64,000 nucleotides of DNA. Origin: Tieghemiomyces parasiticus (taxonomy: Eukaryota; Kickxellomycota; Dimargaritomycetes; Dimargaritales; Dimargaritaceae). Location: assembly GCA_027575765.1 (NCBI GenBank), contig JANBPT010000096.1:1-64000 (forward strand). The letters run 5' to 3'. The translations under genes were made by a program, and so were the position numbers. Position 1 is the stretch's first letter, and each line of letters starts with the position of its first letter. The notes beneath the pieces are model-generated. The model searched no databases. It was not told the DNA's origin and saw only the letters and a list, made by a program, of their open reading frames with translations. Positions 1-26,291 of this stretch are shown here, piece after piece.

Positions 1-3000
1 CTACCGAGTCCCCCTCATCCTGGTCCCGATGCACAGCGTCCTTGACGGTCGAGTAGAGCTCCAGCCGTGGCCGTGCGAGACCCGTGGTTTTGCGCATGAG
101 CTTATTAGTGGTGTGAAACAGGCGGTTTAGCCGCTGCTTGGGATCCGTGGAACGACCCAGTGTGGCCTGGATCCGGTGGGCCACCCTGCTGACATTGGCG
201 CGCCACTTAGCGTCCAGTGGATGCGGGGACTGGCGGCCCGTCCCGGATTTAGGACGGGCATTCGTAGCCAAGCCGGCACGTACTGCTGCTGCACCAGCAG
301 GGTGGGCGTTGGAGAGCGGAGGTCGCCGCGCCGAGCCGCCAAAGTAGCTGGGACTGGGCTGGGGTAGCAAGCTCGGGGAGGCTAGCGGCCGCGGGGTTCG
401 TAGAGATGCGTGGCGAGGCGGCAGCTCCGAGGCCGGTAACGGTGGGGGAAGACCCGGATCGGCTGTCGAGGAGGGCCGTGGGGTCGGGAGTTGGGATCGA
501 TTGTCAACGCCGCCGCGGCGGGCCACGCCAACCGGGGGGCGATTTTTGGTTAAAAAGGGCCCAGCCGGCTTGGGGCGGCCTTCTGGGAGGATCAAGGGCC
601 GAGTCCGCACTGGGGAGGATGGTACGGAGCTGAGGTCAAGTGGATCGCCCCGCCGACTCGAGGTGTCGTCGTCATCATCGTCGTCATTCAGTTCGACGGG
701 GCACTCACCCGGGACATTCGCCAGTTCCTTAGCCTGCTTCCCTTCTAAACGCAACCCCACTGAGAATGGCCGCGGTAGGGCGGTGGCAGCGGGGGTGCGC
801 AAATGTCCGTGAGTATCCGGCACGAGGGTGCTGGCAGTCGGGAATAGAACTCCATCCGTGTCTTCACCAGCCCATGGCAGGTTAGCCGGCACGGGCACAT
901 CAGCAGGGGCGGGTTCATCGTCAGTGTTGGCCGTGGTGGTGTTGGGCGTGGATAGGGTCTCACGGCGTGGCGCGACGGACGTGGTGGCCGATTCAGCCAT
1001 CCAATCGCGGGACAGGCGGCGGTAGACGGTAGCGTCCATGTTAACCGGGTGCGGCAGCCAACGTAGATCCTCCGCGGCATGGTCCGACCTGACCTCCTCA
1101 TCGTCCGACGTCCCTAGAATGGGGAGGTACGGCATGACATCCGTCGGGGCTCGCAGTTCGGTTGACGGCATCCCTAGATCTGGTAAAGGACGGGCGGTGA
1201 GCCTCGGGCTGGTATGGGCACTAGCACTTCCGGGAGCCTCAGCTGAGGCCGCGGTCGGGGGTTCCGCCGGCCCCGCTGTCGCAGCCTGAGAAGCTTGGCC
1301 TAGGAACAAATGGCGCAGTTTTCGACCAGCGTTACGGCGTAGGTCGCGCTCAGGCAGGATATAGGCCCGAGCGAACTGGTCGAACCGGGCATCCCAGTCG
1401 TACACCTTCTCCTGTACCACGGTGCGCACAGCATTGAGCGCCAGCGTGTCAGCCGGGTGGGTATTCTCCGTGACCTGGTCCACAAACTGCAGCATGTAGC
1501 GTCGCTCAGCGGCGGCAATCTTGAGTAGTTCGCTGAGGTCGCCGCGGCAGTAATCGGCGCGTTCGGCCGCCACCAGGTCCCACACGTCGAATCCCTTAAG
1601 GCGTTCTGTCAGCGAGTCCCAGAACCGCGTGATGAGCCCACGCAGTCGCTCGGCATCGGCACTTTTGAGAGCGGCATTGGTGCGCGATCGGATCACTAGT
1701 TTCAAGGCCGGGATGCGCACCTCAGCTAGGGCCACAGGGGTGTAGCGGAACCGGGCGGTGTGGCCGCCGCGACTAAAGGCCAGGGCATGGTGATGATTGA
1801 GTCCATGCGGACACAAATCAGCCCGGCAGTGCAGGTCGGTGTGGTAGAACAGCATCTCCAAAAACTTGCCAAACGACAACTGCCAGGTAGCTGCGGACAT
1901 TACAGCTGGTGGAGTACGGCGACTGCATACCGTGCATGCGCTCGAGACTAGGAGCCGATCAGCATATCCCGGGAGGGGCGGGGGTTCCGGGCCCACGGTG
2001 ACGGTGATCTGACCCGTTCCGTGCACGTAGGATCGGGCGTGCTCCTCGAGTGGTCGGCCGCAACCTGAAGGGGCCGGGGCCGGGCAGCGCAGTTCAGGGG
2101 CCAGACACATCTCCTCGAGGTACTGACCAAGGCTCACGTCGCTCTCTTGGTAGTACTCGACCAAGTGGATTTCAGAGGCATGACAGACGTGGCGGTCGGC
2201 GGGGCGCAACACGGTGGTCCCCACGTATAGGTTCTGGTGGAAGAGCGGGTCTACGGCCGGGGCCGGGTGGCTGGCAATGAACGACTCGCCGGCGCGCAAG
2301 TCCAGCGCGTAGTCGTTAAGGATGTTCTCGTACTGGTGGAAGAGGCGCAGGTCGTTAGCCCACTCCTCCTGTAAGGTAAGTGAGACCCCCGTGGCGTTTC
2401 CAGTTAGCAAAGAAGATGGGATGGTCAAATGGGTGGACCGGCTGCGGTCGAGGAGGAACCGATGGTACTCGTCCCGCACCCGGTAGTACTCGCCTTCTAC
2501 GGACCGCATGCGTACCAGGAGGTACGGCGGGGGGAACTCCACCCCGGGCGTGGTGGAGAGGACGGTAGTGGTGTACGGCACCAAGGCAGCGGCAGCGCGA
2601 TGACCCGGTTCCAACACGGCGGAGGCGTCGGGCTCGCCATTGATGTCAACGTCGACGGCCGGAGGCGGTAGGGAGCGGGCGAATAGCTCCCGTGACAATC
2701 GGGTTTCCAGCCGCAAGCTGTATGTCACGAAGACCAGCATGGAGAGCACGGATTTAACCCGAGCCAGGATGATTGAGTCAGGGCCCCGCAAGACTAGGCT
2801 GCATCCGTTTGCGTTGGGGCACCCGTTGAAGTACATGTAGGATTTGCGTATGCCTGGGTGGTCGCGGTGCTGGTAGGCCTCCACAACCACGCTATGGCAC
2901 GTACCCAGGGGGGATGGAACGGCGGCGGTGGCAAGGGTATCGAGGTCAGTTACCGGTCGGGCCCCGGTGAGCCTGGCCACCTGTTGCAGTATGTGGGGCT

Positions 3001-3958
3001 TGACGTGGCAGGCGAAGGCCACCCCACGACGCCATAGAATCTCCTGGGCCAGGTTGGAAACACCATTCTCCACCAGGACCAGGGTTGGGGCCACGGCGAC
3101 GACGCGGTCGATGAGCCGTTCCAAGTGGTCTCGCTCCTCGGTTAGTACTACACTCAATGACAAGAACCGGTCCGGAGCATACTCGAGGGCTCGGGTGAGC
3201 AACAGAATGCGCGGGCGTATAATTTCGGTGGGCATCTGGCGGTGAGCAAGGTGTTTTGTACACACGATGCCGGCAACGTATCGGGAGTCTGCAGGCCGGC
3301 CACCGGGTATCTTTTTTATTTTGACGTACTGCCGCACGTCCAGGGCGTCCCCGGCACGCACGTCGGTCCGAACGTGGGCGGCAAAGGCGGAGAGAAGGTC
3401 CAAGAGGACAGGTTCCCATATAGAGATGTCGACCACCCCGGCCCGGTGTAGACACTGCCTCAGGAACCGCCGCTGGTGGGCCCGGGCCGCCGCTGGCAGC
3501 TCACCTGGATTCACTAGTGGTGGGCGGGCTGACTTTGGCTCTAAAGGTGGCTCGGGCGCAGCGCGTTGGAGCGGTAGCGGTGGTCGGCGGGGGCGAAATT
3601 TGGGCAGTTGCAGGGCTTGGGGTGGGCCTGACGGCCGCCGGTCAGGGTGTGGAGTGGGTACTAAGGGTCCCAGGGCGTGAAGTGGAGATAGGGGTATCGG
3701 GGTCGTGGCATATAGCACCTGGTCATCCGAATCGTCCGTGTCGCTGGACGAGTGGAGGGTCAGGGCCGCCAGTTCATCAGTCGGGGAGAGTGGGGCGTTC
3801 AGTTGAGGTCGGAACGGAGGGCGTTGAAATCGCCGGGCCTGGGCGGCCCGGTCAGCTGGGTCGTCAGTAGTTTCTTCGTGGTCCAAAGACGGGACGGGCG
3901 GCTGCTCGCCGCTAAGCATGCGCCGCAGCGTGTCAACCGTGCGACTAAAGTAAGCCAT
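1..3958 (-). CDS. FAB1: 1-phosphatidylinositol-3-phosphate 5-kinase Fab1/PIKfyve, N-terminal part (runs off left edge)
   Basis: Open for 1319 codons from ATG 3958-3956 to the window edge, with no stop and no visible intron. The family makes PI(3,5)P2 on the vacuole/late endosome. Residues about 170-250 match the segment before the chaperonin-like domain (AYVK-like DVRQYVKIKKIPGG, then GIVCTKHLAH). About 250-420 is the Cpn60/TCP1-like domain, with PTLVLVENGVSNLAQEIL, LGTCHSVVVEAYQ and FNGCPNANGCSLVLRG. About 640-740 is the conserved Cys-rich region, with CTVC, TWQLSFGKFLEMLFYH and CPHGLNHHHALAF. A long acidic/Pro-rich linker follows. The C-terminal lipid kinase domain must lie beyond position 1. 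No N-terminal FYVE zinc finger (RRHHCR-type) is visible before the chaperonin-like part, which is unusual for a fungal Fab1. The shared upstream region with PSO2 (3959-4883) is divergent. Family assignment is firm; the start is the first in-frame Met. Confidence 0.88.
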   Translation of the reverse strand, partial: MAYFSRTVDTLRRMLSGEQPPVPSLDHEETTDDPADRAAQARRFQRPPFRPQLNAPLSPTDELAALTLHSSSDTDDSDDQVLYATTPIPLSPLHALGPLVPTPHPDRRPSGPPQALQLPKFRPRRPPLPLQRAAPEPPLEPKSARPPLVNPGELPAAARAHQRRFLRQCLHRAGVVDISIWEPVLLDLLSAFAAHVRTDVRAGDALDVRQYVKIKKIPGGRPADSRYVAGIVCTKHLAHRQMPTEIIRPRILLLTRALEYAPDRFLSLSVVLTEERDHLERLIDRVVAVAPTLVLVENGVSNLAQEILWRRGVAFACHVKPHILQQVARLTGARPVTDLDTLATAAVPSPLGTCHSVVVEAYQHRDHPGIRKSYMYFNGCPNANGCSLVLRGPDSIILARVKSVLSMLVFVTYSLRLETRLSRELFARSLPPPAVDVDINGEPDASAVLEPGHRAAAALVPYTTTVLSTTPGVEFPPPYLLVRMRSVEGEYYRVRDEYHRFLLDRSRSTHLTIPSSLLTGNATGVSLTLQEEWANDLRLFHQYENILNDYALDLRAGESFIASHPAPAVDPLFHQNLYVGTTVLRPADRHVCHASEIHLVEYYQESDVSLGQYLEEMCLAPELRCPAPAPSGCGRPLEEHARSYVHGTGQITVTVGPEPPPLPGYADRLLVSSACTVCSRRTPPAVMSAATWQLSFGKFLEMLFYHTDLHCRADLCPHGLNHHHALAFSRGGHTARFRYTPVALAEVRIPALKLVIRSRTNAALKSADAERLRGLITRFWDSLTERLKGFDVWDLVAAERADYCRGDLSELLKIAAAERRYMLQFVDQVTENTHPADTLALNAVRTVVQEKVYDWDARFDQFARAYILPERDLRRNAGRKLRHLFLGQASQAATAGPAEPPTAASAEAPGSASAHTSPRLTARPLPDLGMPSTELRAPTDVMPYLPILGTSDDEEVRSDHAAEDLRWLPHPVNMDATVYRRLSRDWMAESATTSVAPRRETLSTPNTTTANTDDEPAPADVPVPANLPWAGEDTDGVLFPTASTLVPDTHGHLRTPAATALPRPFSVGLRLEGKQAKELANVPGECPVELNDDDDDDDTSSRRGDPLDLSSVPSSPVRTRPLILPEGRPKPAGPFLTKNRPPVGVARRGGVDNRSQLPTPRPSSTADPGLPPPLPASELPPRHASLRTPRPLASPSLLPQPSPSYFGGSARRPPLSNAHPAGAAAVRAGLATNARPKSGTGRQSPHPLDAKWRANVSRVAHRIQATLGRSTDPKQRLNRLFHTTNKLMRKTTGLARPRLELYSTVKDAVHRDQDEGDSV

Positions 3959-4883
3959 GGTGACAGAAAGATGCAATGGCAAGCGATAGAGGTAAGCGAA
4001 AAAGTAAGGCAAATCGAAAGGCAGACTCCGGTAGCGGAGCGAGTGGCCGGTTTAACGGCCGGGCCTGCCCTGCGACGGTGAGTTCGGGGATGGTCGGGTT
4101 GTGTAATGGGCGGCGGCAAATGGTATGGACAACACAATGTGACAGATGGGCTGGGATGTATTATTGGGAGTGTGAGGGTTGGGTCTTTGGCCCAAAATGC
4201 AACGACGGCGCTGGCCAAATGAGCCGCAGGTCTAATTGGGAGGAAATTAGTCAACACCACGTAGCCTCAGGTATTGCCAGGGCGCAGGTACTCAAGGCAA
4301 AGCGGACTATTGGTGTCAATAACTGATTTAAATTTAAGCGCGCCAATCGGCCCTAGCCAGCGAAGTGCATGCTGCGGTGTTTTATGTCCCGCCCAGCAGT
4401 CACAGTGTCTTCCACTTACCCTCACTCGCTCTTATTCGGCCATCCTGACAGCCCTGGCCGCACGAACTGGTATCCAATGTATCACCTCCCCTCTCCCTAG
4501 CGCTGGCCCGATACCTGGTATCCACATATTATATTTTATTTTTGAACTATGGCTCTCCGCCAATATCGGGGCTCAATAGTCCGCTTGCTTCTGGAGTGAC
4601 GAGTTACAAAAGAGCCGCAGTAAGTTTTTTTTACCATCGCTACGGTCAACACCTGTTCGACCCCGTCGCTTCATATTTGGTCACCGCTCCGCCACCCGAT
4701 CCCTCTGATCAGCCACCTACTAACTAACCACCCCTGAGCTACCCACACCTCACATTCCGACTAGTCTGAGACCTGTCTCTTTCGATTCGGTCCAACGGAT
4801 TGCGTTTCTTAGCCACGCCATAGGCCCGTCCTCCCCTCTTGTGTACAGGCACCTAGTCGAGTGCATCGTGTTTGACCTCAGTC
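3959..4883. other. Divergent intergenic region between FAB1 and PSO2
   Basis: About 0.9 kb between two outward-facing genes, so it should hold both promoters. The last 250 bases before PSO2 are pyrimidine-rich, as is common in front of fungal genes. No FYVE-coding exon, RNA gene or repeat was seen on either strand. Confidence 0.5.
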
Positions 4884-16154: not shown

Positions 16155-17165
16155 ATGAAGCTTCTCATCGCCCTCATGGGCGCACTGGCCTTCGGGGCCG
16201 CTGTCGTTCTGTCCAGTGAATTGGTGCAGCCTCATCTCGAGCAGCGCCAGGCCGCAGCCCCCACTCTCAACATCATTCAATCCATCATCTGCCAAGTCAA
16301 CTGCGGCCCTACTGCCACCGACCGGGTCACCGTTACGGCCCCTACCCTGGCGACTGTCTACACCACCGTCTATACGGCTACCGTCACCCAACCCCCCTAT
16401 GCTATCTCAACTAACACCGTCACCATTGACATGCGCTATACAACTGTTACCATCCCAATGGGGACTGCAACGGTCACCGCCACTCAAACTGCCACCGTCA
16501 CTAAGGGCACAACCGTCTCGCAGGCCACTACAGTCACTGTGACCAAAACGGCCACGGGGGGTACTGTGACCACTACCACTACCGAAGTGGTACCGACCAC
16601 CAAGGTCACAACCAAGACCGCGACGGTCACCACCAAGGCCACCGTATCATCTACGGTGACTGCTCCTACCTTGTCTATCACTGCAACCGCTACCGTAACC
16701 GCCACTGCCACGCTTACCCAGACCGCCACTGCAACGACCACCAGCACCTTGACCGTTACTCCGGTGGTACCCTCCACTTCAACTGCTGTCGACAGCACCT
16801 CGGTGAAGCCCCCCACCCCTGTTACCACCACCCCCGTGCCTCCTACCTCCATCCCGCCGCCAACAACCAGCACTACCTCTAGCCAAGCCCCCACTATTAC
16901 CGGTGGCACCCCCGTTAACCCCCCAGCCTACGCCAACTACATCGTGGAGTTTGTCGGTGAATATGACACGCCCACCGGTACTGCGTCCTACAACAGCTTT
17001 TTTAATACCATCAATAGTTGGAAAATTACCTACAGCGTACAAGCTACCTACAAGGTTCTCTTCTATGGTGTATCCATCGACTTCCCGTCCAGCCATGTTG
17101 CTGCTGCCCTTAAGATCAATGGTGTCGCTAAAATGGCCATATCTGGCACGGCTACCCAAGCTTAA
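16155..17165 (+). CDS. Secreted Thr/Val-rich mucin-like protein with C-terminal inhibitor I9 domain
   Basis: Single exon, 336 residues. Residues 1-20 are a signal peptide (MKLLIALMGALAFGAAVVLS). A short pro-like segment ends near EQRQ. A CxxxC pair (CQVNC) follows. About 170 residues of alternating Thr and beta-branched residues (TVTAT, TATVT) come next, then a Pro/Thr/Ser linker. Residues 261-336 match the peptidase inhibitor I9 / subtilisin propeptide fold, from NYIVEFVGEY through FFNTINSWKI to VLFYGVSIDFPSS and NGVAKMAIS. The family folds on or inhibits subtilisin-type proteases, but here there is no protease behind it. The Thr-rich stalk should be heavily O-glycosylated in the cell wall or secretome. 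There is no GPI signal at the C-terminus. Related to the genes at 18445, 20416 and 24514. Function is inferred only. Confidence 0.88.
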   Translation: MKLLIALMGALAFGAAVVLSSELVQPHLEQRQAAAPTLNIIQSIICQVNCGPTATDRVTVTAPTLATVYTTVYTATVTQPPYAISTNTVTIDMRYTTVTIPMGTATVTATQTATVTKGTTVSQATTVTVTKTATGGTVTTTTTEVVPTTKVTTKTATVTTKATVSSTVTAPTLSITATATVTATATLTQTATATTTSTLTVTPVVPSTSTAVDSTSVKPPTPVTTTPVPPTSIPPPTTSTTSSQAPTITGGTPVNPPAYANYIVEFVGEYDTPTGTASYNSFFNTINSWKITYSVQATYKVLFYGVSIDFPSSHVAAALKINGVAKMAISGTATQA

Positions 17166-18444
17166 GGTCTAGGTTAAGGGTTTGCGGTACCCGTCCGTTT
17201 CCCTTCGCTTCCACTTCAAGGCCGCAACCGCCTTTTGACCCATTATAAGTTTAACTGTGTTAATTCTGTACCCGATACGATTCGAGTCTCCTTAGACGCC
17301 CCTTCACTGGCCGCGTCGGTGAACTATCATCCCTAATAAACTCGAATTGATAACCCTTCGTGAGTATTTCGGAAAGACGGCGGTAAGGTAATCACAGTGT
17401 CTGGCCTATCGCAGCTCTGGCCTGGACGGCGATGAAGACTTGAAATTCTGCACGATAAACCAAAAGAGATAAAAAAGTTGAGGGCTGACTATAACCATAT
17501 GATACGTAAACAGATTATTAGGCCTACCCATGTAATGAGCACACGCTTCTGTGAAGAGCTGCAGGGCAACCTGGCCAGGTTGTGTCCAGTGTTAGTGAAG
17601 AAGGGGCGATCGTAGCGCTGCTCTTGGATTGTTATAGGCTTAAAGACGGTCCAACTCGCAGCCAAGGCCTGCGAAAGGAGCGCCCGACGGATTACACGGA
17701 TCCGTGTGAGTACGGAGGTGGATTGAGGAAGCCGACTCTCCCCCACCAGTATGGCGGGGACGGCGTGAATGATAAGTGGAACATCCCATTCCTCGTCACA
17801 GACTCGTTGATGCACTCCACGGCTGACCGCCCCCATTGGATTTCAACTCCAACCTCTCTCCTCTCACACTCCTTCTGTATCCTTGACGCTCCTGTCATCA
17901 AACTGTATTGCTACCATTATAATAACTTTCCCTATTCAGGAAAATAGTGGCGAAACTCCGCTCCAAGTGATCCAATTCCCTAACTCCCTATCGCTACCAA
18001 TACTGGGCAAGAGGCACGCTGTGACTTCGTGGTAGGACTGAAAAGGGATGGAGAGGGTAGCGGTAGAACAGGGGCTGGAGGTTGACAATCAAGCACCACG
18101 AGCGCTGAGAGTCCAGTTCCCACTGTTGCCTCGTCTTACTGGTCACCGTTACCAACCAGGGCTATGGCGGCGATCCAGGGGCATACGGTCCAGGTATTGG
18201 TACACATGTTTGCTTGTAAGGATCCTCTTTGGTCCGCGACGCTGCTTAACGGACTAAGCTCGACCAGTGGTATCAACAGCGGCCGCGGTAGTAATTCCTC
18301 AACCTGCATTGTGCATCGTATTTAACAAACAAGCAGCCCTGATATCCAGTCGGCTCATAATAGCTTCTCTACCTCCCTTCTACGCATACTCACACTACGC
18401 AGCTTAAGGCGTACCATTTCCTCACTCTCTTTCCATCAGCCGCC
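17166..18444. other. Intergenic region between the two I9 secreted-protein genes
   Basis: About 1.3 kb. Short ORFs on both strands have no recognisable content. The final 100 bases before 18445 are pyrimidine-rich, consistent with a 5' UTR. No remnant of a further I9 gene found by eye. Confidence 0.4.
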
Positions 18445-19215
18445 ATGCGATTTCCCTTCGGCGGCTCAGGTGCGCCCATCCTACTGGTAGCTCTGGCTAT
18501 CAGTACTGTACTTTCGGCGCAGTATTCGGTAGCTAGAGGATATCGACGTAAGTCCCCAGGCAGGCCAGCAATTGACAGGTCGCAACAAACACATATCGTC
18601 ACCCACGACCCTCAGTGAGCTCGGACATGGTACACTCTGTCCCTTCACACCATACGCTCATATTGTGATGTTAATCTTTATTTCCGCTGCACTCCTCTCC
18701 CCTCACCTTCTGCCTAATCACATTTGTCCGCTGCAGCCCCCCGCCGCTCGACCACTTCAACAATTGAGGCCACTTCAACTACCCTGACCACCTCAACAAT
18801 TTCAGTCCCTTCAACTTCCCCGACCACATCGCTCGCCAATTGTACTAGTACGATTGAGGTGGCGACTTTGACGTCGACCGCCCTCGCTACGTCTACTCCC
18901 ATCGAGCCGGTCTCCACTGGATTAGTATCCGCTACGACTACTTCATCGGCCCCGGTCCCTACCTTCAGCAACACTGACCACCAGTTCTACATTGTTCTTT
19001 TCAAAGGAAACTATGGAACCACTCAGGGTACCACTTCGCGTACGAATTTCTTTAACACCATCACCAGCTGGAACATCCCGTACGTGGTGGGAGCGAACTA
19101 CACTCTCCTGTTGAATGGCGTGGCCATCGACCTGCCCAACAGCTACAAGCAGCAGATTTCCCGCATTTCTGGAGTGGCGAGTATCACAGCTGACACGGCG
19201 GTGGGGCCGGTCTAA
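18445..19215 (+). CDS. Secreted Thr/Ser-rich protein with C-terminal inhibitor I9 domain, paralogue of the 16155 gene
   Basis: Two exons, 18445-18547 and 18737-19215. The intron is 189 nt, phase 1, donor GTAAGT, branch CTAAT, acceptor CTGCAG. The product is 193 residues. Exon 1 encodes the signal peptide (APILLVALAISTVLSAQ). The stalk is shorter and more Ser/Thr-like (TSTIEATSTT, TTSTISVPST) than in the 16155 protein. Residues 117-193 are the I9 domain: QFYIVLFKGNYGTTQGT, TNFFNTITSWNI, LLLNGVAIDLPNSY, SGVASITADT. The FFNTI-SW signature and GV-ID-P block are shared with the 16155 protein, but DNA similarity is low, so this is an old paralogue pair. Secretion and protease inhibition are inferred from the family. 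The junction restores the reading frame exactly, which supports the gene model. Confidence 0.82.
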
Positions 19216-20415
19216 TACGGGAGAGCCGAAACCAATTTAAACCACTATACACATGTCAGCCACAGTCGGCTAGATCGACAGCCCTCCTCGCTCCGTATTA
19301 TGTGTTCATTTACTAATAGTTTTACGTATTTCCCAGATCCTAATGACGGGCTTCACAGAATGTTCGGATGTAGTGTCCTGTACACCCCTCCATACTTCCT
19401 AATTGTAATCTTCAACGCTAAATTCACTGCGAGAATAGAACACAGTTTGGAGTCAGCTGTGATGTTTTATTATTACCCATAGGGTCCGAATATTAGCTTT
19501 GCAGAACGAAGCGAACAGGTTGGTCTCTTTCACCATTATTCCTGAAGACGCTGCTGTTTAGCCGTTTGTCGTCACCCCGATTCCAATATAAACCAATGAC
19601 ACAGCGAATGCCCTGTGATCCAAGGGAATATGAGCCGTTGCTGATGGTGTTTAACCTTCCTAGCATACTGACCAGTCGCAAGAATCACTGTCTCCAAAAA
19701 CAACTTTATTATTATAATCATGGCACGTGGCTCTATCCCGCATTATACATGTCTTTCACTGCTACCCAGATAGAGACTGATCGCCCCTTCTGTTGACTGT
19801 CGAGACGAAAAAACCTCATTTTGTGCCGTATACTGTTCACTCAGGCTTGACCTCCACAAAAAACGAATCACCGTCTGTGGGACAGTGATATATAAAGATA
19901 CACAACTCTCACAGCCATTTGACAAACAATAAAGCATACCTGACCATTGCTTGGCCAGAACATGAGAGATTAACGTCTCCGTGAGAACCTCTCCTCCTGG
20001 ATGGGGACCTAGATCGCTGTCAGCATTCTGCTTACCCCTTAGTACCACTTCACAGCATTGAGGATCCTTGAGTTGCCCACATAAAGTTGTTGAAGCCAAT
20101 CCCTTGCAATTCGGCACCCCTACAGTGGTTCAGCACCCCACGGTGACGATCGACCAACGCCCTCTTGGCCTTGCAGGAGACTGTCAGCACGTCGAATTAT
20201 GGGGCTAACAATCACCCTAATGTATAGGCTTTGCTCTATTATAGAACCACCCTCGTATCTCGCACCCGACTCCGCCCTGATTACCTGCGTCTTGGCCTCC
20301 ATAGCAGACTAGGGGTCATGCGTATTCCTGTATGAAAAATAGTCGAGTTCATTAAGGTTAGAGTGATATCAACTTCAGTAACAAGCATAGAAGAATAAGT
20401 ATTGAGGGGCCAAGC
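19216..20415. other. Intergenic region (tail to tail), no gene supported
   Basis: About 1.2 kb between the stop codons of two convergent secreted-protein genes. AT-rich in its first half. No conserved ORF, RNA gene or repeat recognised. Confidence 0.4.
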
Positions 20416-21021
20416 TCAAGCCTTAGTGACCGTGACGATATCAGTCCGGGTCAAGGTCGTCAACACGGTTGCGGTGGCCATCTCGGTGACGGTGGCCGTA
20501 GTGGTCACGGTCGGGGTGACCGTACCGACGACGGTACTGGTGGATCCGACGGTGGTCGTCACGGTGGTCACTACGTTGGCCGTGGACGTAGATCGGGCCG
20601 TGGAGGTCACCGTGATGGCACCAGGGACATGGGTGACGGTGGCAGTAGTCGTACCGACTACAGTGGTAGCCTGGGTAATCGTCTGGGTGGCAGTTGTGGT
20701 CTTGGTGACGGTGGCAGTTTTACCATACTCAGTGGCCACGCCTTCCAGGATTGTAGTGACTTGGCTAATATAATAGGGGGCATTAGTGTACACTGCGCTG
20801 ACGGGTACCGTGACGGTCGATACCGTTTCGGTGACGCTAACCGTGGCGGAGGGCTGGGTAGGGCAGTAAGTCGGGCACACGGCGGCGCGACCCTGGAGTG
20901 TTTGGACAGCCCCGCCGGCATGACGGTCGTTATGGTGGATGTTCGGTCCCAGAAACTGAGAGTCTACCGCGGCAACAGCGACGGCGATAACTAAAAGGGC
21001 GACGGGGACGTAGATACGCAT
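20416..21021 (-). CDS. Secreted Thr/Val-rich mucin-like protein without I9 domain, copy A
   Basis: Single exon, 201 residues. The start is the Met at 21021, which opens a clean signal peptide (MRIYVPVALLVIAVAVAAV); an in-frame Met further upstream would bury it. After a His/Asn-rich pro-segment comes GAVQTLQGRAAVCPTYC, with a CxxxC pair comparable to CQVNC of the 16155 protein. About 150 residues of TVT/TAT alternation follow. It ends hydrophilic (DIVTVTKA), so there is no GPI anchor and no I9 head. Bases 20421-20914 match 24519-25012 in copy B with 14 differences and no gap. A TATTTAAG at 21144-21152 (minus strand) is a possible promoter element. Function unknown; a wall or matrix glycoprotein is the likeliest role. 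Confidence 0.82.
   Translation of the reverse strand: MRIYVPVALLVIAVAVAAVDSQFLGPNIHHNDRHAGGAVQTLQGRAAVCPTYCPTQPSATVSVTETVSTVTVPVSAVYTNAPYYISQVTTILEGVATEYGKTATVTKTTTATQTITQATTVVGTTTATVTHVPGAITVTSTARSTSTANVVTTVTTTVGSTSTVVGTVTPTVTTTATVTEMATATVLTTLTRTDIVTVTKA
20421..20914 (-). repeat. Near-identical direct repeat, unit A (partner 24519-25012)
   Basis: 494 bp, no indels, 14 mismatches (about 97 percent identity) to 24519-25012, same orientation, 4.1 kb apart, with CCT2 in between. The limits fall at the stop codon and just inside the coding region after the pro-segment. The flanks share nothing recognisable. Confidence 0.9.
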
Positions 21022-21986
21022 TATATAGTCAGAATACGCATAATCAAAATAACAGATGAAGGGAAACTGAGACACTGCGAGATTAGGGCTGGTGTAATTA
21101 ACGACAACCTTAAACGGGGGGGGTAAGGAATTGTTCAGGACGACCTTAAATAATCTATACGCTCAAAAAAGTGGGATGGATTCTCACTCGGTTTTATCTA
21201 CGTTGCACTGTCCCGCCCAGGTCCACGTCGAGTTGTTGGCTCCCATGGAGGTGGGGAGGGGGGGGGGAGACAGGAGGACCATGGCGACCACCCGGCCCTC
21301 GTCCTGTGAATGGTGCGCCGGAAAGTGGCAAGATGAACTCCTCCACTCAAACTTAAACCTCTCCTCGAAAATAAGAGTGGCAGGCCAGTGTAGCGGCGGA
21401 GAGGGAGGGGGTGCCTGTAGTTGTCACGTTTCAGAGATTAAGTCATAATTACAGGTAACCTAGGTGAAGATTGACAGAGTGTATAAAGGGGAGGGGCTCG
21501 TGTCCACTATCGTTTGTTCTTTTGATACCACTGGACCATAGACCTACCTTCAAAACCTCCTGGCAGTGCACATCAGAACTGCCCTTCACACTAGCCAGAA
21601 AATCTGCGAGCGCGGCACATCCCACTGGCACCTGTTCACTACGGAGTCATTCAATATCAACTTTGCGCTAAATCATGGCATGGTACACCGTGCCTGGTTG
21701 GCATTTGAGTGTAGACCAGGTGAATTTTGTAAATTGGGGCCACTAGGTGTAGGCGAATTAGGCACCAAAATGTTTATGCTGCAGTCGATGAATAATAAAA
21801 AAGGAGATATCCGGGTGGGGATGGATCCCACCCCCTTAAAATGGCACGATGAGAAATTGGGCCGGCTCAAACTGTCGATCCCGTATAGCATGGAGAAGAG
21901 AGGCCTAACGGCACAGGGTAGGCGTCGAGCGTAGGACGAATGTCGGCGACCCACCCGCCCCTGCAGACTACCACGTATTCTCTGCC
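21022..21986. other. Intergenic region upstream of copy A and downstream of CCT2
   Basis: About 1 kb. It holds the copy A promoter and the CCT2 3' end, and a long G-run near 21255. A plus-strand frame at 21566-21934 stays open but has no ATG start and no known domain. Confidence 0.4.
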
Positions 21987-23920
21987 TTACATGCCCGTGC
22001 GTTGACGTGGGGCGCACCGGATAATGTCGTCAACACGCAGCACCATCTCGGCGGCTTCGGCAGCGCTGAGGAGCACCTGGCGCTTGAGTTTGTAAGACTC
22101 AGTGATACCGAGGGCGCGCATGTCACCCACGATTCCCTTGTCCATATCGAGGCCGGCATTGTTCTGGTTGGCGTAGTGGGCAGCGCGGAGCTTGGCCACC
22201 AGGTCGGAGCTGTCAAACCCAGCGTTATCGGCCAGGATGGTCGGCATCTGGCGTAGGCCCTTGGCGAAGGCCTCCACGGCGATGGCGCGCTTGCCGGCCG
22301 TGGTGGCGGCCAGGGCGTCGACGGCTTTGGACATGAGAGTCTCGGCGCACCCGCCGCCCAGGACGGTACGGGGCTCCCTGACCGTCTGGGAAAGTACGCT
22401 GAGGGCGTCGTGGAGGGACCGCTCGGCCTCGTCCAGGAGCTGGGTGGTGGCTGCGCGGAGTACTACCGTGCAAGCCCGGCTGCCGGCCACCCCGGAGAAC
22501 TTAATGAGACGGTCCTCGCCAATGATGATCTCCTCGATCAGGTCGCAGTGGCCCACCTTGACCAGCTCTGGGTGATCGAACGTAGAAACAATCTCACCGC
22601 CAGTGACCAGGGCTAGGCGCTCCACACCGTCAAAGTCGGCGTGCTCGATGGCCATGATCCCTGAATCGGCGAAAAGCTGCTCGGGCCAGTTGTAGATGAG
22701 CTGGCGGTTGACAAAGCAGTTGATGCCGTGGGCCTGGATCTTTTCAACCTTAGCACGCATCTTCTCTCGCTCGGCACGCTCCAGCTCGGCCAGCTGGCCC
22801 GTGGCCTCCACCTTGAGCCGGGCGCCAAACACCTTTATCTTGTCCGTATCCATGGGCGTGTTGGCAATCAGGATGCGGGCGTTCTCGATTCGCTTAGGCT
22901 GGTTGACACCGATCTTCTTGTCCAGGATGAAGCCCTCGTCGAGGTACGAGTCTGTGAGGCGACCGCCAACCTTCTTGATGATCTGGATGTGTTCCAGGTT
23001 GGTGCTCCCACCCAGGCGTAGTACAGCGTCCACGGCCAGGTTAGCGAAGTATTCCTTATCGTGGCTCAGCACCTTCGAGCTCAAGGTGGTGCGGGCGATG
23101 TTGATCAGATCGGCGCGGAAGGCGGCCCGGTCCTGGGAGTTATCGACAGCTGCGGCCCGTAGCGCCTCATGGGCAGCGGTGGTGGCCAGACGGAAACCGT
23201 CAATGATGGTCTGCGGGTGGATTTTCTGATTGATCAGCTCTTCGGCCTGGCGCAGAAACTCGGAGGCCAGTACGCACACGGAGGTAGTGCCGTCGCCCAC
23301 CTCGTCGTCCTGGACCTTAGAAATGTTGACCAGCACCTTAGCGGCGGCGTTGTCAAGAGCGATCGACTTGAGGATAGTGGCGCCGTCATTAGTGACCAGC
23401 ATATCGCCCTTGCTGCTGGATTGCAAAATTTTATCCATGCCCTTAGGACCCAAAGTGCTCTTAACCAGGTCGCCCACGGCGATGGCACCGATGATGTTGC
23501 TCTGCAGAGAGGGGGAGAGGGTATACAAAATTGTGAGAAGGAGATACAGCAGGGTGAGCCCGTGGGTGAAGGGTGAACAGGTTTGGGAGTGACCTAGGGT
23601 GTTACCTTGAGTCTCTCGAGAAGAATACCTATCGGGCCACCCGAAATGGAAACCGGCGATGTGACTTACCAGGCGAGCATTCTCGGCACGCTCCTGCTGG
23701 GCGTTCTCACCGAAGATCTGGACGGGGCCTAGCGACTAAAGGGTGGGTATGGGATTGTTAAAGACCGAGGAAACGCATTAGGGGTTAACGATGGTGTTCG
23801 TCATTGTACATTTTGGCCGGTCCACGTTTTCTTTGCGGATGCCCCTTTCCAGCGCTGCTTGTGCATCCCAGTTCGGGAATCTGATTAGGTTCATGGATCA
23901 TTCCAAGCTGGCCTTACCAT
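21987..23920 (-). CDS. CCT2: Chaperonin CCT/TRiC subunit beta
   Basis: Three exons: 23920-23918 (ATG only), 23735-23670 and 23501-21987. Both introns are phase 0 (182 and 168 nt; donors GTAAGG and GTAAGT; acceptors TTTAG and CTGCAG). The product is 527 residues, the usual length for CCT2. CCT is the cytosolic double-ring ATP-driven folding machine for actin, tubulin and WD40 proteins. Exon 2 reads [20 protein letters not shown], matching the beta-subunit N-terminus. ATPase motifs are intact: [33 protein letters not shown] and, near the C-terminus, LGGGCAE and [16 protein letters not shown] and LGITES are also beta-type. The first exon contributes only the initiator Met. No other in-frame Met exists upstream of the conserved region, so this start is well supported. 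Confidence 0.95.
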
Positions 23921-24513
23921 TACGACGGGTTGCGTGAGTGATGAGGGTAATGTGAGTAAAGGGCTAAATGCAGTACAAACGAACGGCGAAAAAAGGGGTA
24001 GGTGGTACGGATGGCCGAAGGATGAGTAACTACCCTACGAAATGCACACCAACAGGCCTGGCGGGGCTCCAATGCTTGCTGATCAGCACCTCGGCCCAGA
24101 GCCAGCGCTCCGCCTGGCTATCTCAAGCACGGTGGGGAGATTTTTACGCCCCCATGCCTGGAACTTGGGAAATCTACTTGATAAGCCCCAAGGCGCCCCC
24201 CTTGACGTCCACAGTTTGCACTATCCTAGGCATCGGAGTGGCCGTTTTGCTGGGACGGGTGTTAAGAAGAGGCCCTCCTACTTGCTTGTAGTTATTAGCG
24301 AGTATTAAAACTGACAAGAATTATGGGGTTCTGCCCTAGAGCCTATAGTTTTATGGGTTATTATACGGAACGTACTAAAGCACCCAGGAGGCGGTTAAAG
24401 TATTAATTAGTATGGAGCGCAAAAAGAAATTATAAGAATAAAGCAACCAGCTCAGAGACCTAATGCTGCTTGAAAGGGGGGAAAAGGGACTAAAAAGCCA
24501 GAAGGCTAATTAT
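23921..24513. other. Intergenic region upstream of CCT2, downstream of copy B
   Basis: About 0.6 kb. It contains the CCT2 promoter and 5' UTR and the 3' end of copy B. No gene, repeat or RNA recognised. Confidence 0.4.
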
Positions 24514-25095
24514 TTAGACCTTAGTGACCGTGACGATATCAGTCCGGGTCACGGTCGTCGACGCGGTTGCGGTGGCCGTCTTGGTGACGGTGGCCGTAGT
24601 GGTCACGGTCGGGGTGACCGTACCGACGACGGTACTGGTGGATCCGACGGTGGTCGTCACGGTGGTCACTACGTTGGCCGTGGACGTAGATCGGGCCGTG
24701 GAGGTCACCGTGATGGCACCAGGGACATGGGTGACGGTGGCAGTAGTCGTACCGACTACAGTGGTAGCCTGGGTAATCGTCTGGGTGGCAGTTGTGGTCT
24801 TGGTGACGGTGGCAGTTTTACCATACTCAGTGGCCACGCCTTCCAGGATTGTAACGACTTGACTAATGTAATTTGGAGCATTAGTGTACACTGCGCTGAC
24901 GGGTACCGTGACGATCGATACCGTTTCGGTGACGCTAACCGTGGCGGAGGGCTGGGTAGGGCAGTAAGTCGGGCATACGGCGGCGCGACCCTGGAGTGTT
25001 TGGACAGCCCCGTCAAGGTGCTTAGCTCTATGCTGCGACTGCTGGCTCATTCCGGCCACAGCCGCCATCATAATTACAAGCGGAAGAACGCGCAT
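24514..25095 (-). CDS. Secreted Thr/Val-rich mucin-like protein without I9 domain, copy B
   Basis: Single exon, 193 residues. The start is the Met at 25095, opening a signal peptide (MRVLPLVIMMAAVAGMS). From GAVQTLQGRAAVCPTYC to the end it aligns with copy A without gaps: 494 bp (24519-25012), 14 mismatches, with 24583-24853 (271 bp) identical. Signal peptide and pro-segment are unrelated in sequence to those of copy A. Five mismatches near the 3' end all change amino acids. A TATATAT lies about 60 bases upstream. The opposite strand also stays open (24463-25200), a by-product of ACC/GTC codon repetition. The protein lacks I9 and a GPI signal. Function is unknown; a secreted or wall glycoprotein is inferred. 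Confidence 0.82.
   Translation of the reverse strand: MRVLPLVIMMAAVAGMSQQSQHRAKHLDGAVQTLQGRAAVCPTYCPTQPSATVSVTETVSIVTVPVSAVYTNAPNYISQVVTILEGVATEYGKTATVTKTTTATQTITQATTVVGTTTATVTHVPGAITVTSTARSTSTANVVTTVTTTVGSTSTVVGTVTPTVTTTATVTKTATATASTTVTRTDIVTVTKV
24519..25012 (-). repeat. Near-identical direct repeat, unit B (partner 20421-20914)
   Basis: Partner of unit A. The middle 271 bp (24583-24853) is identical to 20485-20755. Differences cluster at both ends, as expected at the margins of a conversion tract. Confidence 0.9.
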
Positions 25096-26291
25096 GGTGA
25101 AGTAGAGCAAAAGTTAAAAGGGCCACTACCGGGTGCTATTCAATTGGTAAGATATATATGGATACGGCTACAGGGTAGAGGAGCAGTGGATAACAAGTAG
25201 GACATGATATGTATCTGCACTCCGCCCGTCGACTGCCGGGCGGTGGTATTAAATAGTGCAGCCCGCTCAGTTTGCACGAGTGTTTGACCGTAGTATTTCC
25301 TTTACCTAGCCCACCTGTGTCCCCATTGCTCTCATCCCAAAAGGTAAGCTGACGGTCAGATTGGTACGTGTTTAAGTGGGTGCGTGTGGAGATGGGAACC
25401 TCGAGCAAGGGTCGACCGATCGACCGCACCATGTCAACACTCAGGTTTGGGGCGGGGGTTATTAGGAAACACCAGAAAAAGGAAACAGGCGCAGAAAGGG
25501 TGCTAGGCCACATTTATCTAGGAACCATGGGGTAAGAGCCTCCGTAGATCATTGCGTTGAACTTGGACCAACACAGGGTGTCAGTCATAGTTGACCAAAC
25601 TAAGAAACTGTAGGGTTGGCTGGCCGTTACAAGTGGATACGGGGTACATGGCAGTGTTTGCGTGCGAAGTGGGGAATGAGGTTGACCAGCGTAGTAATAG
25701 GGCCCTAATGATGATCCGAGAGTGAGGAATTCGGTCTGACGAGGGAAGCTGGTACAGTAGGGCTAGGAGAAGATCAACCCGGAGAAGGGGACCTGGGAGG
25801 CCTTCCGTGGAGTTAATGGTGGCGAAAGGGGAGGTGGGGCCCCGTTGGAGGCGGTTCCAGCTTGGACAACCAGCAAGTGGCTTCGAACGACTTGCCCTAG
25901 GCCGACATTGGCAATAGGTAGTGACGCTGTCATTGGGCTGGGTAGATATACCGAGCGAAGAGCTAGGGTTGTAGTGTAACTTAGAGCCGCCGCCATATAC
26001 AGGCGGATACAATTGCTTCAGTGGCCCGTGGTGACATCATTATTGTAATTATACTTCATAGCAGCGTCAAGACTATGTTTACGACCGTTGAAAACACAGG
26101 GGTAGGGACGAGACTTGGATAAAAAGGGGTGTGTGGGATGTAAAGGAAAGGTGGAGCGGGGATTGATAGAGTAATGGAAGCGAATGTGACGGTCACAGAA
26201 GACCGGCGGTAATGAACGGACGTGGGGGGTAGAAGATGGATAGAAGGGATTGGGTACCCCGGAGCAGCGGGTGGTAGACCCGACCGATCAC
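25096..26291. other. Intergenic region between copy B and UBC13
   Basis: About 1.2 kb. It holds the copy B promoter (a minus-strand TATTTAA is near 25250) and the UBC13 3' end. Short ORFs have no recognisable content. Confidence 0.4.

Follow-up and report, generated by a model that had tools for sequence, protein, structure and literature searches.

Two genes, g1 and g2, in a 64,000-nucleotide stretch of the Tieghemiomyces parasiticus genome (assembly GCA_027575765.1, contig JANBPT010000096.1, positions 1 to 64,000; hereafter the window) encode probably secreted proteins in which a Thr-rich stalk is followed by a C-terminal domain of about 79 residues, the head, which is almost certainly a subtilase-prodomain (I9-like) domain. 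No protease is attached to either head. The heads are likely to inhibit subtilases in trans, and we regard as evenly balanced the fuller proposal that g1 and g2 are secreted in-trans subtilase inhibitors whose heads descend from the organism's own prodomains and are carried on Thr-rich stalks. T. parasiticus is placed in Dimargaritales, Kickxellomycotina; the window is the first part of contig C1320 in an assembly of 46.5 Mb and 1363 contigs. Both genes belong to a group of four for probably secreted Thr-rich proteins within 9 kb (16155-25095), of which the other two, g3 and g4, are headless.

Relationship of the heads to subtilase prodomains

Gene g1 (16155-17165, + strand) is a single-exon gene of 336 aa with a probable signal peptide, the motif CQVNC, a long Thr-rich stalk and a head at the protein C-terminus (residues 258-336; 16926-17162, +). 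Gene g2 comprises exon 1 (18445-18547, +), encoding a probable signal peptide with a hydrophobic core of mean hydropathy 2.89, a 189-base intron (GTAAGT...CTGCAG; 18548-18736, +) and exon 2 (18737-19215, +), encoding a short Thr/Ser stalk, the head (residues 115-193; 18976-19212, +) and the stop; spliced g2 is 193 aa long. This splice is the GTAAGT option among seven frame-keeping splices enumerated, and both splice sites and the signal peptide are kept in the g2 allele on contig C477. The heads were assigned by homology, AlphaFold2 (AF2) models and Foldseek comparison, and the limits given for them in an earlier note on this DNA (261-336 and 117-193) agree with the modelled fold.

When each head was searched against its own genome, the other head ranked first (49% identity), followed by prodomains that start long subtilase frames. 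The g2 head matched the subtilase prodomains of contigs C437 and C839 with an E-value of 5.8e-10 and 38% identity, and the g1 head those of C731 and C874 with 8.9e-6 and 35%. An alignment of four head rows and seven subtilase rows spans the entire head. The head-matching subtilases contain Peptidase_S8 and PA domains in all three scanned, a layout that we take to be Vpr/C5a-peptidase-like, and Asp, His and Ser catalytic motifs are present in all 11 own subtilases read. Thus, the homologous prodomain is N-terminal and followed by S8 and PA (3/3 scanned) in these enzymes, whereas the heads are C-terminal and alone. An N-glycosylation sequon (NYT/NFT) occurs in the prodomains of 11/11 subtilases read and in the g2 head, and is lost in the g1 head.

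With an own prodomain as genome query, at least 33 places were found at E<=10, comprising the four heads (two genes in two haplotypes), one broken subtilase and 28 places in frames of 341-990 aa, of which all 16 examined contain S8 catalytic sequence. A separate I9 search of the genome gave four further places, on C638, C427, C288 and C304. Those on C638 and C427 lie in 432-aa frames, and the C638 frame was read as I9 followed by a protease. The places at C288:78-305 and C304:54-281 are secreted-looking I9 domains above the Pfam cut-off in frames that are 127-133 aa long and truncated by the contig start; no catalytic sequence was found in the 4 kb examined, and they may represent a truncated subtilase or a further stand-alone inhibitor. 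Among the decidable places, only the four head copies are intact genes without a protease. The broken S8 subtilase (C1250:14754-14948 and downstream) consists of a prodomain and the start of a catalytic domain with in-frame stops. In addition, eight prodomain-like places (C1086, C329, C836, C766, C1018, C284, C476:46728 and C634), 31-40% identical to the query, all lie in frames of 851 aa, and this equal length may reflect a subtilase expansion.

A PDB profile search returned two matches among 177,635 entries at E<=5, and both are subtilase prodomains (E 0.63 and 1.3). A tree of 15 rows, 13 of them different, groups the heads on one side of a 98/98-supported branch, which is long and carries the program's warning of long branches meeting. 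The simplest reading of these sequences would be a single origin of the heads followed by an old duplication. No head homologue was found in a set of 5.8 billion proteins (no match at E<=0.01 among 74 candidates, and none at E<=1 among 3), a weak negative given that candidates were restricted to 0.55-1.75 times the query length. This set includes named proteins of Dimargaris and Dispira (Dimargaritales) and the CCT-beta of C477 (100% match), yet it returned neither g1 nor g2, suggesting that these two, and genes of this type, are probably unannotated in deposited gene sets.

Predicted fold and C-terminal tail

The AF2 models of both heads show a β-α-β-β-α-β ferredoxin-like fold, with a predicted local distance difference test (pLDDT) score of 80.3 for the g2 head and 83.6 for the g1 head. 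Foldseek placed subtilase prodomain entries in all of the first 7 (g2) and 11 (g1) rows; the top match of the g1 head is the PCSK9 prodomain, and the prodomain matches of the g2 head reach a probability of 1.0 at the top. When the register is extended by extrapolation beyond the last aligned residue, the C-terminus of g1 comes to lie at position 76 of 76 in POIA1, 152 in PCSK9 and 69 in Tk-subtilisin, and the g2 C-terminus lies at most one residue from these positions in the PCSK9 and Tk-subtilisin rows. PCSK9 152 and Tk-subtilisin 69 are presumably processed prodomain ends. In these models, both proteins would therefore end about where a processed prodomain does.

Absence of a protease behind the heads

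The earlier note had stated that no protease is attached to the heads, and the searches bear this out. Apart from three gapped tblastn matches that extend from the g2 head beyond its stop toward the subtilase catalytic start, the best own-subtilase match outside the heads in the window had an E-value of 0.27, and no subtilase gene was found in these 64 kb. We compared the 500 bases 3' of g2, g1 and the g2 allele with four subtilases in shuffle tests; the score was reached by 1 of 200 shuffles in one of the 12 comparisons, by 16-22 of 200 in three and by 40-199 of 200 in eight. The gapped downstream matches were accordingly treated as chance, and a protease in the true transcript was rejected.

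Second haplotype and selection

Contig C477 represents a second haplotype of the four-gene region, with 92.6% identity over 16.4 kb and all four genes open. The g1 allele is 18 codons longer (354 versus 336 aa), and its protein is 93% identical in both matched stretches. Between haplotypes, the pooled heads differ by about 5.5 nonsynonymous and 13.5 synonymous changes, giving a ratio of nonsynonymous to synonymous polymorphism (pN/pS) of 0.12 (Fisher p 8e-6, rounded counts). The corresponding values are 26 and 29 (pN/pS 0.37) for the g1 and g2 stalks, and 28 and 24 (pN/pS 0.46) for g3 plus g4. The heads, the g1 and g2 stalks, and g3 with g4 are all constrained, and the heads are under purifying selection. 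The presence of two haplotypes may be set beside a relative, Dimargaris cristalligena, described in PMC10386755 as possibly non-haploid.

Stalks, secretion and anchoring

The four stalk genes reported in the earlier note were recovered at 16155-25095. Among the 44 stop-to-stop frames of at least 150 aa in the window, those of g1-g4 are the four richest in Thr (21-28%), the fifth having 12%. Genes g3 (21021-20416, - strand; 201 aa, probable signal peptide) and g4 (25095-24514, -; 193 aa, a g3 paralogue) encode headless stalk proteins and are open in both haplotypes. The Cys motifs are CQVNC in g1 (Cys46/50), CPTYC in g3 (49/53) and g4 (41/45), and in g2 a single Cys70, located within the stalk. 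All four proteins have N-terminal hydrophobic cores (2.42-3.16) and possible -3/-1 cleavage sites in a rule-based check, which is not SignalP, and are thus probably secreted.

No glycosylphosphatidylinositol (GPI)-type hydrophobic C-terminal tail was seen in any of the four by a hydropathy rule without a GPI predictor (best 12-residue mean 0.55-1.11 in the last 25 residues). Surface retention would therefore need another mechanism, and contacts through the Cys pair or through glycans are speculation. Sequence reading found no dibasic (Kex2-type) site between stalk and head in g1 or g2, so the head should remain on its stalk.

A 72-aa N-terminal block of the g4 stalk matched only g3, g4 and their alleles in the genome (4/4 matches at E<=1), and a 103-aa N-terminal g1 stalk query matched only g1 and its allele (two matches at E<=1). 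Full-length g1 aligned with the headless stalk proteins at E-values of 2.5e-4 to 0.004, a score reached by 19 of 2000 composition shuffles. Since the N-terminal g1 query found just itself and its allele, the case for a shared origin of the headless stalks with that of g1 is suggestive only and we do not claim it. A search of the window found no head remnant behind g3 or g4 better than chance.

Comparison with known I9 proteins

The earlier note's view of I9 domains as normally either propeptides or small cytosolic inhibitors proved incomplete, as secreted protease-free I9 proteins are described as widespread in ascomycetes (PMC4039746) and are also reported from Rhizoctonia (PMC5585356). Stand-alone I9 inhibitors listed in PMC6993865 include POIA1 of Pleurotus ostreatus, Pbi2/YIB2 of Saccharomyces and SPI-1 of Arabidopsis, with further examples in Toxoplasma and Plasmodium. 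POIA1, Pbi2/YIB2 and SPI-1 are small single-domain proteins, whereas g1 and g2 are probably secreted, their heads end a Thr-rich stalk, and these heads show sequence relatedness to the prodomains of the organism's own subtilases. SUB1-ProM of Plasmodium and TgMIC5 of Toxoplasma are described as stand-alone mimics of a prodomain, with an established or supposed role in regulating the subtilase of the same organism (PMC6993865). No mucin-like stalk is mentioned for them in the passages of that source that concern them, in contrast to g1 and g2, and SUB1-ProM is said there to adjoin subtilase genes, whereas none was found in the g1/g2 window.

A close parallel in fungi is the SS1G_01593 family of secreted I9 effector candidates, with 99 secreted homologues spread across 97 of 234 species of fungi, reported from Ascomycetes only (PMC4039746). 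Like SS1G_01593, g1 and g2 are probably secreted fungal proteins with a predicted prodomain fold and no protease. SS1G_01593, however, is 95 aa long and was found by Pfam I9, whereas g1 and g2 come from Kickxellomycota, have heads below the Pfam I9 cut-off and are fused to a stalk. In Rhizoctonia, one secreted I9-domain protein is reported to trigger cell death in plants and a second homologue to lack this effect (PMC5585356); in one place this source terms the tested protein an I9-containing protease. Our literature search for I9 inhibitors combined with Thr-rich proteins did not find a stalk fusion. The new part is therefore the stalk fusion and its occurrence in this lineage, secreted stand-alone I9 inhibitors being already known in fungi.

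Proposed mechanism and alternatives

In the mechanism we favour, the prodomain of an own S8 and PA subtilase would have been separated from its protease, duplicated and placed on a stalk. The head would dock its β-sheet on the mature subtilase, and its free C-terminal tail would lie product-like in the active-site cleft, as in prodomains, POIA1 and Pbi2. On the Thr-rich stalk, putatively prone to O-glycosylation, the inhibitor would stay extended and resist proteolysis, either close to the cell surface or within the extracellular matrix; own secreted subtilases, or close homologues, might be limited there, at the parasite-host interface. Given the relation of the heads to the own prodomain family, the first targets to consider are the secreted subtilases of the organism itself, or near homologues. 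This relatedness favours self or a close homologue as target, and we put even weight on and against own subtilases being the main one. A more tentative extension, which we consider rather unlikely, is that the proteins form a mycoparasite's displayed protease shield, in which own prodomains on mucin-like stalks would protect the surface or haustorial interface during host digestion; they would then form a self-immunity module during predatory proteolysis, and the headless stalk proteins would make up an inert coat.

Several observations weigh against the assignment of the heads and the role proposed for them. Pfam I9 gave no match to the g1 head, and the g2 match stayed below the cut-off of 21.2 bits both in the exon-2 frame (E 0.066, 14.3 bits) and with the head alone (E 0.013, 16.6 bits). 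Every Foldseek E-value exceeds 1e-3, and unrelated ferredoxin-like entries (DAHP synthase, aspartate kinase and others) appear from rank 8 for g2 and rank 12 for g1. VIA Z scores (at most 7.8) are no higher for prodomains than for ACT, AHAS and NikR domains, and AHAS is the top row in one listing, so the fold alone does not decide. The modelled tail has low confidence, with pLDDT below 50 at g2 residues 84-86 and a last-block mean of 52 (g2) and 64 (g1). BPN' is described as having a Glu/Asp helix-capping pair (PMC6993865), which by our reading of the register is Thr/Asp in g2 and Ala/Ser in g1. The difference in nonsynonymous rate between heads and stalks is not significant (p 0.13), and tighter constraint on the heads is only a trend. 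Moreover, the hydropathy rule gave no anchoring signal on g1-g4, and their placement near the surface is a guess.

The I9 heads named in the earlier note stand, although neither reaches the Pfam Inhibitor_I9 cut-off; what identifies the domain is its homology to prodomains together with its predicted fold. Own subtilase prodomains scanned alone likewise gave no Pfam family at E<=10 in 3/3 cases, indicating that the Pfam I9 model misses this subtilase branch; the seven own prodomain rows (7/7) also lack acidic residues at the BPN' capping positions. Similarly, the suggested extracellular or wall-anchored subtilase inhibitor keeps the inhibitor role as its likeliest part, while wall anchoring finds no GPI-type tail in 4/4 proteins.

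The heads might instead be aimed outward, blocking host or competitor subtilases in haustorial parasitism as has been suggested for candidate I9 effectors in fungi that infect plants. The family of T. parasiticus is described as obligate haustorial parasites of fungi (PMC6492006), and secreted I9 proteins have been proposed as effectors elsewhere (PMC4039746, PMC5585356). Among the sequences searched, none of them from a host, the parasite's own prodomains are nevertheless closest to the heads, and the heads bear no sign of rapid change between haplotypes (pN/pS 0.12), leaving an outward target unlikely. It is also doubtful that the prodomain fold has been taken over as the structural or adhesive tip of a surface glycoprotein and does not inhibit, its tail no longer fitting an active site. 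Such a role would suit the two headless neighbours, the g1 head without the NYT/NFT sequon kept in g2 and in 11/11 subtilase prodomains read, and the absence of an acidic residue at either BPN' capping position in that head; against it, both heads stop at about the functional tail length though just 49% identical, and the head is the best-conserved part (as a trend only).

Prodomains are described as intramolecular chaperones (PMC10580911), so the heads could act in trans as foldases of secreted subtilases rather than as inhibitors. We consider this very unlikely, because all 11 own subtilases read have their own prodomain, making a second chaperone unneeded, and a secreted stalk fits extracellular action. 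Finally, the existence of a broken subtilase elsewhere in the genome (C1250), the three gapped matches past the g2 stop and the single downstream comparison at 1/200 might suggest that g1 and g2 are really subtilases, either decayed or wrongly modelled, and that their protease lies in another exon or was recently lost. This is extremely improbable: 11 of 12 downstream comparisons were reached by at least 16 of 200 shuffles, the best own-subtilase match elsewhere in the window is E 0.27, in two haplotypes both frames remain intact and under constraint, and a Thr-rich stalk ahead of the head is not a subtilase layout.

If in-trans inhibition by g1 and g2 is correct, a protease-making parasite would have made a separate, displayed inhibitor out of the folding domain of its own protease, and the two genes would be candidates for how haustorial mycoparasites protect the contact zone. 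As Pfam I9 misses this subtilase branch, counts of such stand-alone inhibitors in early-diverging fungi may be too low.

Neighbouring genes

A housekeeping gene for CCT-beta (T-complex protein 1 subunit beta; 21990-23735) lies between g3 and g4, so the island of the earlier note holds as four genes in 9 kb but is interrupted. The alleles of g3 and g4 lie at C477:48849-49457 and C477:52927-53541, and within each haplotype the two copies have haplotype-specific variants in common. The synonymous divergence (dS) between the paralogues is 0.166 and 0.179 within haplotypes versus 0.216 and 0.200 across haplotypes, which together with the common variants suggests gene conversion between g3 and g4. 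Long antisense frames opposite the stalk genes (20362-20991 and 24442-25197, +) are probably an effect of repetitive Thr/Val codon use and not genes. A 1350-aa frame (2-4051, -) runs past the window edge and matches TCP1/Cpn60 at 235-435 only; it resembles a multidomain protein more than a chaperonin.

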